Below are positions 30,680 through 32,123 of a stretch of 64,000 nucleotides of DNA, piece by piece. The translations under genes were made by a program, and so were the position numbers. The notes beneath the pieces are model-generated. The model did not search any database. It worked only from the letters and a program-made list of their open reading frames with translations, and was not told the origin of the DNA. The DNA comes from Candidatus Zixiibacteriota bacterium (GTDB lineage: Bacteria; Zixibacteria; MSB-5A5; WJJR01), in NCBI GenBank assembly GCA_036397555.1, contig DASWIS010000008.1, positions 248,001 through 312,000 on the forward strand. The letters run 5' to 3'. Each line of letters starts with the position of its first letter. Within the stretch, counting starts at the first letter, position 1.

Positions 30680-31642
30680 TCAAACGCGTTCGCGGACGAC
30701 TGATCGGCCGGACGGGTTGGTCTTGGAGAAAACATCGAATCCGGAAGACTCCAGGTCGTCCAGAACAGTTTCGTATGTCTCGACCAGATACCGCAAGGCG
30801 GCATCGTTTCCCTCAGGCGCCGCACTGCAGATAGAGGGCAGGTTGCGCTTGCCCGCCGACAAATGGCGCCGGGCGCGCCCGGCTTCAAACGCCGCCAGTC
30901 GCCGATAGGGCTCGGACGTCTTTCCCTCCTGTCGCATCTCACGGAGCTCGCGGACCGGCAGGCCAAACCGGTCAAGATCAGCTACCGGGATATAGATGAG
31001 ACCACCATCCACGGCGTCCAGATCGATCGCGACATCACGCAGGATGTGCGTCCAATAGCAGAAGATCGCCAGATCCGCGGTGGCACTCTCGACCTGTTCG
31101 TAGCCCCAGGGACAGGCAAACCGGCCGTCCCCCGCTGGGTGCATCAACACCAGGTGCATAAAGACAATCGCGGGAGCGATGGACGCGCCTGTCATATACT
31201 GCTTCAAGTGCGGCCAGTCGGAGAAGCGCGGGGTGAAAAGGTCGCTCCTCATCGCGGCAGCCAGATTCCGCCATGGATCCAGGGGGATGGCGAAGTTGCT
31301 GAACGTGTCGGAAAGGGCCCGCCACAATGGACCGTTGACCGTCCCGTTGTTGGCTGCCTGCTCGACATTCACAAGCCAGCCGTCGACGCGCGCGACCGCG
31401 TCTTGTCGGGCCGACCCGGCTAAACGCGCGCGATCGGGAATGCCGTCGACATAATCGTCGATCACCCGCATCGACGCATACGCCGATGCAAACGCCCGTC
31501 TGGTTTCCGGAAAAACGAATCGCTGTGCCGCCGCGTAGAGATGCGGTTTGTCGCGCTTGGCGATCTCCTCGCAATGGTCGTACGCGTCGTGCAGCGCTCG
31601 CGCGATGAGCGGTGCCGCCTGCCCCGCCGATGGCGTCAACAT
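30680..31642 (-). CDS. Squalene/phytoene synthase family protein
   Basis: A 320-residue head-to-head prenyl synthase from the ATG at 31642 (a TTG at 31678 would add 12 residues). The two Mg-binding motifs are present, DDYVD at 62-66 and DVAID at 203-207 within HILRDVAIDLD, as is the SMRVIDDYVDG context. Such enzymes join two C15 or C20 diphosphates to presqualene, squalene or phytoene; here the product is not decidable, and no other hopanoid or carotenoid gene is in the window. It lies 51 bp downstream of the SelW-like selenoprotein gene on the same strand. Confidence 0.85.
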   Translation of the reverse strand: MLTPSAGQAAPLIARALHDAYDHCEEIAKRDKPHLYAAAQRFVFPETRRAFASAYASMRVIDDYVDGIPDRARLAGSARQDAVARVDGWLVNVEQAANNGTVNGPLWRALSDTFSNFAIPLDPWRNLAAAMRSDLFTPRFSDWPHLKQYMTGASIAPAIVFMHLVLMHPAGDGRFACPWGYEQVESATADLAIFCYWTHILRDVAIDLDAVDGGLIYIPVADLDRFGLPVRELREMRQEGKTSEPYRRLAAFEAGRARRHLSAGKRNLPSICSAAPEGNDAALRYLVETYETVLDDLESSGFDVFSKTNPSGRSVVRERV

Positions 31643-31693
31643 TGCGCCCAAAGACGCGACCGATGGGGTGCAGGTCAAGGGCGGGAGTTTGAT

Positions 31694-31915
31694 TTACGAG
31701 GGAATTTGGACGAGGATTTCCGCATCCTCCGGGAATCGACCCGTCTCCTTCTTTGAGTAGACCAACTTGCCGTCGACCCTCACATCAAAGATGCCATTGG
31801 AGCCCTCGATCAGTTTCGAATCGATACTGTGGTCTCTCTTGATGGCGGCCGCCAAACTGGCGGCTTGAGGTCGGTAGTTTCACATGCCGCAGTATGTAAT
31901 TGTGACACGCGTCAT
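31694..31915 (-). CDS. selW: SelW/Rdx-family selenoprotein with in-frame UGA (selenocysteine)
   Basis: A 73-residue Rdx (SelW/SelT/SelH) protein that ordinary gene calling would miss. It starts at the ATG at 31915, preceded by AGGAG, and reads MTRVTITYCGM, then UGA at 31882-31880, then NYRPQAASLAAAIKRDHSID and onward to VDGKLVYSKKETGRFPEDAE before a TAA at 31696-31694. The UGA falls exactly at the U of the family's CxxU redox motif, after the beta strand VTITYC. The family signatures after the UGA (NYRP, a central GIFDV, and SKKETGRFPE) continue in the same frame, so the UGA is read through rather than terminal. A hairpin matching bacterial SECIS rules follows the UGA. The protein is expected to be a thioredoxin-like redox protein. 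It requires SelA, SelB, tRNA-Sec and SelD elsewhere in the genome, which the window does not contain. A cysteine-to-stop mutation or assembly error is the main alternative. Confidence 0.9.
31848..31882 (-). promoter_or_regulatory. SECIS-like element in the selW mRNA
   Basis: Immediately after the UGA (31882-31880), fifteen nt (31879-31865) lead into a perfect 6-bp stem, GCCGCC (31864-31859) and GGCGGC (31853-31848), with apical loop AGUUU. The loop starts 21 nt after the UGA and has G in its second position. Bacterial SECIS elements, as known for SelB recognition, have an apical loop about 16-37 nt from the UGA with a G among the first two loop bases, and this fits. It is located inside the coding sequence, as in bacteria. 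Confidence 0.8.
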
Positions 31916-32123
31916 GGTAGTCTCCTTTGTTGGCTGCTCTGCAATCCCAAGTGTGTCTTAGTTACGGTCGCCGAGCGTTGGCATTTGACAGACCTCGTAA
32001 TAGGCACCCGAGGGTGAGGTTGCCCGCCCAGGCCATAGGGGCGCCGACCAAAGCGTTTTGGCGACAACATCTTGAAAGATGACGCACACAACGCCCTCCA
32101 GCGCTTGGGTGCGGTAGAATCGT

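Follow-up and report, generated by a model that had tools for sequence, protein, structure and literature searches.

A SelW-like selenoprotein gene with an in-frame UGA and a covarying SECIS hairpin in a Candidatus Zixiibacteriota genome

The window, by which we mean the whole stretch of 64,000 nucleotides of a Candidatus Zixiibacteriota bacterium that we have analyzed computationally, almost certainly contains a gene encoding a SelW-like selenoprotein (Rdx family, thioredoxin-like fold). This high level of confidence pertains to the selenoprotein itself and not to the link with isoprenoid synthesis that is considered at the end. The relevant features are listed in Table 1. Read directly from the minus strand, the frame starts with an ATG at 31915 and ends in a TAA at 31696-31694, and with the UGA taken as selenocysteine (Sec) the translation is MTRVTITYCGMUNYRPQAASLAAAIKRDHSIDSKLIEGSNGIFDVRVDGKLVYSKKETGRFPEDAEILVQIPS. 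Purine-rich sites similar to the AGGAG that precedes the start codon are found upstream of many SelW homologues as well. A gene of this kind is easily missed or split by ordinary annotation and gene callers, and under translation table 11 no ORF of at least 60 aa is listed in its frame. A sequence-only reading of this DNA had proposed the gene on the basis of the AGGAG, the ATG, the in-frame TGA and the TAA, together with a perfect 6-bp stem closing an AGUUU loop 15 nt after the UGA, and had placed the product in the SelW/SelT/SelH (Rdx) family with the UGA as the U of CxxU; each of these positions is reproduced by direct reading, and the family assignment is borne out by the profile matches described below.

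Table 1. Positions in the window of the SelW-like gene, its translation signals and the adjacent gene.
Feature	Position	Strand	Remarks
SelW/Rdx-type selenoprotein gene	31694..31915	-	73 aa, Sec at residue 12 (CGMU)
AGGAG Shine-Dalgarno-like sequence	31922..31926	-	6 nt before ATG; read directly
In-frame UGA, selenocysteine codon, U of CxxU	31880..31882	-	conserved in homologues
Bacterial SECIS hairpin	31848..31864	-	stem 31864-31859/31853-31848, loop AGUUU 31858-31854; conservation and covariation
Squalene/phytoene-synthase-like gene	30680..31678	-	PF00494 3.7e-31; directly downstream of SelW

With C replacing U in the query, the product matches Pfam Rdx PF10262 with an E-value of 2.7e-19 (69.6 bits against a cut-off of 22.6) in an alignment that covers residues 3-71 of 73 and therefore spans the UGA, and it matches NCBIfam NF041051, SelT/SelW/SelH family (seleno)protein, with an E-value of 4.3e-26 (91 bits against a curated cut-off of 88). 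All 25 rows of our alignment match both models and, judged from these profile scores, homology to the Rdx/SelW family is far above chance. An AlphaFold model computed from the 25 sequences (mean pLDDT 91) places C9-G-M-U12 between strand 1 (residues 4-9) and helix 1 (residues 15-29), which is where the CxxU/CxxC motif lies in the thioredoxin-like fold of this family. The top PDB matches of the model are the SelW-related entries 2fa8, 2obk, 2p0g, 3dex and 2oka, followed by MIEN1 and mouse SelW (2npb), and among the best of these 2fa8 and 2obk give TM-scores of 0.85-0.91. A comparison by sequence likewise leads to SelW structures. Mammalian selenoprotein W and MIEN1 (C17orf37) share the fold and the position of the CxxU/CxxC motif with the window protein, at about 26-30% identity. 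The eukaryotic SECIS element is located in the 3' UTR and is unrelated to the bacterial one.

In order to follow the UGA among relatives we have searched 118 genomes, the window's own included. SelW homologues of the window type are found in 24 of them, each with exactly one in-frame TGA at the identical codon, and a 25th match (L046 in genome G004) is a distant Cys-type paralogue with 32% identity. A wider scan of one genome per species, with a query built from six close sequences, returned 80 loci of which 79 are readable; the Sec codon is TGA in 77 of these and TGC in the remaining two. The loci are labelled Planctomycetota, Zixiibacteriota, Eisenbacteria, Desulfuromonadales, Gammaproteobacteria, Acidobacteria and Chloroflexi, among others, and the scan overlaps with the 118-genome set in a few genomes. 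Although the query profile was made from Sec forms, the scan as such is not biased toward UGA, because Cys stood in place of Sec in one of its two peptide patterns. Downstream of the UGA, dN values of 0.17-0.44 compare with dS values of 0.8-3.0 (where estimable), and purifying selection therefore acts on the part of the frame 3' of this codon. The two TGC loci, L118 from Thermodesulfovibrio and L123 from Nitrospiraceae, both Nitrospirota-labelled, look like replacements of Sec by Cys. In both of them the hairpin or its loop is degraded. At a further locus, L144 (G005:C98:39660-41360), a SecD match is reported with one TGA inside.

The stem of the hairpin downstream of the UGA, GCCGCC/GGCGGC, is perfect over 6 bp and begins 15 nt past this codon. 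Such a structure is readily found by chance: a lenient SECIS rule finds a hairpin with a G in its loop after 150 in-frame TGAs in the window, so that the hairpin alone is not evidence. When 37 nt beginning with the UGA are folded it is the minimum (z -2.4); when 51 nt are folded, with bases 5' of this codon taken in, the minimum is a competing structure. No SECIS match was found by Rfam near the SelW gene. From an alignment of 24 sequences RNAalifold predicted no more than a part of the stem, and we have therefore counted the stem pairs directly. The second loop base, a G at 31857, is invariant in all 92 distinct sequences, and the codon that holds it varies between Ser (AGT), Gly (GGT, GGG) and Arg (AGG, CGT, CGG). 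A further constraint on the hairpin sequence comes from the conserved peptide A-x-[SG]-L-A that it encodes.

The most informative stem pair is 21-33 (31862-31850), which joins two Ala codons at their wobble positions and occurs as C-G, G-C, G-U, U-G, U-A or A-U. Both codons specify Ala in 85 sequences, and in 83 of these the two positions are paired, compared with 49 expected and a maximum of 62 in 20,000 shuffles that leave the relatedness among sequences in place, and in a set thinned to less than 80% identity they are paired in 35 of 37 (19.6 expected). In the thinned set the mutual-information z of this pair, 13.7, is the highest of all pairs of wobble columns, followed by the loop-closing pair 24-30 (31859-31853) with 5.0. 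The alternative pairs are spread over several phyla, going by the labels of the loci, and most of the pairing signal is gone when the stem is slid by 1-3 columns. Other parts of the stem are more variable, the outer pair 19-35 being formed in just 57 and pair 22-32 in 66 of the 92 sequences. Since the covarying sites are silent, protein coding cannot account for the pattern. The features by which a bacterial SECIS is recognized are thus all found, namely a stem-loop immediately 3' to the UGA, a G among the first two bases of the loop and stem changes that compensate for one another, and on the strength of its conservation and covariation the hairpin is a true SECIS element. It does not differ in principle from the SECIS of E. 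coli formate dehydrogenase or of epsilonproteobacteria, in which an apical hairpin of 5-6 bp with an invariant loop G also stands a few nt past the UGA (PMC4607533).

The genome that carries the window in its contig C8 (G000, 2.63 Mb, rated 100% complete) was searched for the Sec machinery family by family. tRNA-Sec (selC) is located at C8:783689-783783 (66.9 bits), with anticodon TCA according to ARAGORN, and forms a contiguous cluster with selA (458.6 bits) and selB (306 bits). The remaining component, selD (327 bits), has one in-frame TGA within GGUAGKIGP. This gene (G000:C8:180002-180931) lies outside the window, and its UGA is followed by a GGUCC-GGU-GGACC stem with a loop G; on account of the in-frame UGA and this hairpin SelD is probably a second selenoprotein of the genome. 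No UGA-containing formate dehydrogenase was found in the genome. The presence of selA, selB, selC and selD, as expected for a Sec-decoding organism, supports the use of Sec by this one, and with selA above cut-off in 103 of the 118 genomes Sec use is general across the class. The sequence-only reading had named comparison with family members, conservation of the SECIS in related genomes and a search for the four sel genes as ways to check its proposal, and it has held up in each: the UGA is kept at the CxxU position in relatives, the hairpin is kept with compensatory changes and the machinery is there in full. A BshA-like glycosyltransferase gene adjoins selC-selA-selB in G000 (C8:781644-782765) and in G002 (L128:1139-4093), where it is followed by a gene that is probably BshC-like; bacillithiol genes may therefore possibly stand beside the Sec machinery in these two genomes.

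The UGA gene occurs in 23 other genomes; selB is found in 20 of them and tRNA-Sec in 20, and at least one of the two is present in all but G004. This genome, rated 100% complete, carries a UGA SelW gene (L031, C29:30934-31137) with an intact hairpin, and neither selA nor selB nor tRNA-Sec was found in it. The genes on either side of the sel cluster of G000 and G002 likewise have no orthologues in G004, so that a contig missing from the bin is the simplest explanation and a more likely one than true loss. For the same reason we have set aside, as the less likely one, the notion that in G004 a Sec gene naturally exists without the machinery to decode it.

How the UGA is to be understood can be judged from these data taken together. 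A single base separates TGA from TGC or TGT and Cys-type Rdx proteins do exist (L046, L118, L123), so that one might suspect that a nonsense mutation has made a pseudogene of a Cys-type gene, or that a sequencing error has made the locus an artefact. The UGA, kept at the same codon in every close homologue and nearly all others, and a SECIS that covaries at silent positions are independently conserved and already contradict this; purifying selection on the part after the UGA and a complete Sec system in the genome speak against it too, and we regard it as extremely improbable. It is no easier to believe that translation stops at the UGA, the remainder being noise or a separately started frame. 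An 11-residue peptide would indeed end there, in keeping with the lack of a listed ORF under table 11, but the Rdx profile aligns on both sides of the UGA and the frame after it is conserved, leaving this possibility a negligible one.

Finally, whichever amino acid the UGA is taken to encode, the frame stays open, as would be the case if the codon were reassigned to Trp or Gly or simply read through. Ten neighbouring genes are normal under table 11, however, and in the genes examined no in-frame UGA was seen at a Trp or Gly position. The UGA also coincides exactly with the Sec site of a CxxU family, the genes selA, selB, selC and selD are all present and the SECIS is conserved, so that decoding other than as Sec is most implausible. 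For the selenoprotein reading we envisage that SelB carrying Sec-tRNA(Sec) would bind the hairpin 3' of the UGA and that selenocysteine would be inserted in vivo at this codon, so that the turn leading from strand 1 into helix 1 would carry a CxxU redox centre. The product is probably a small thiol/selenol oxidoreductase.

Much of this has precedents. SelW-like proteins are among the 25 bacterial selenoprotein families analyzed in 2006 (PMC1794560), and in Epsilonproteobacteria annotation is reported to have wholly overlooked SelW genes, a short hairpin of the same kind with its invariant G being reported there too (PMC4607533). Like the window protein, bacterial SelW-like proteins (NF041051) pass the curated cut-off and combine a CxxU site containing Sec with a SECIS directly after the UGA (PMC1794560; PMC4607533), and the only differences are the host lineage and a neighbouring squalene/phytoene-synthase-like gene. 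The excerpted text of PMC8318568 names Zixibacteria only as a recovered genome, and selenocysteine also figures in that paper. With the family and its being missed by annotation already published, the uncommon neighbour is the only open lead. What the present case adds is the documentation, with a full set of sequence evidence, of selenocysteine use in a little-studied candidate phylum, a clear sequence-based proof of a bacterial SECIS through covariation at silent sites within a coding region, and an example of a gene that is easily split or missed by ordinary callers.

The gap between SelW and the synthase-like gene measures 15 nt to a TTG start or 51 nt to the next in-frame ATG at 31642, and the two genes are probably co-transcribed. 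The scores of the neighbour with the HpnC, HpnD and phytoene synthase models are far under the curated equivalog cut-offs (HpnD 85.3 against 278.6, HpnC 58.5 against 250.45 and PhytoSynCyanob 79.1 against 550 bits), and the profile matches support its predicted membership in the SQS_PSY superfamily only. The gene lies directly downstream of SelW in all seven SelW-bearing genomes of the order, and no synthase-like gene was found in the order's two SelW-less genomes (G005 and G007, 93% and 98% complete). Outside the order it was not seen beside SelW in flanks of 1.5 kb for most genome loci and up to 5 kb for scanned contigs. Because the genomes are few and share ancestry, the association is a lead and not proof of a common function. 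A literature search found no paper linking selenoprotein W with squalene synthase. The inheritance of SelW as a pair with a synthase-like enzyme in the order may connect its substrate or pathway to isoprenoid synthesis. That the two form a functional module, with SelW taking part in an isoprenoid pathway (hopanoid- or carotenoid-like) or protecting it, is a tentative and rather unlikely reading; were it true, it would provide a pathway clue for a bacterial SelW, and the constant partner of SelW, a prenyl-synthase-like gene, in any case offers a testable lead on SelW function in bacteria. The gene order also stays the same further downstream, where an outer-membrane beta-barrel gene is found together with a conserved unknown gene.
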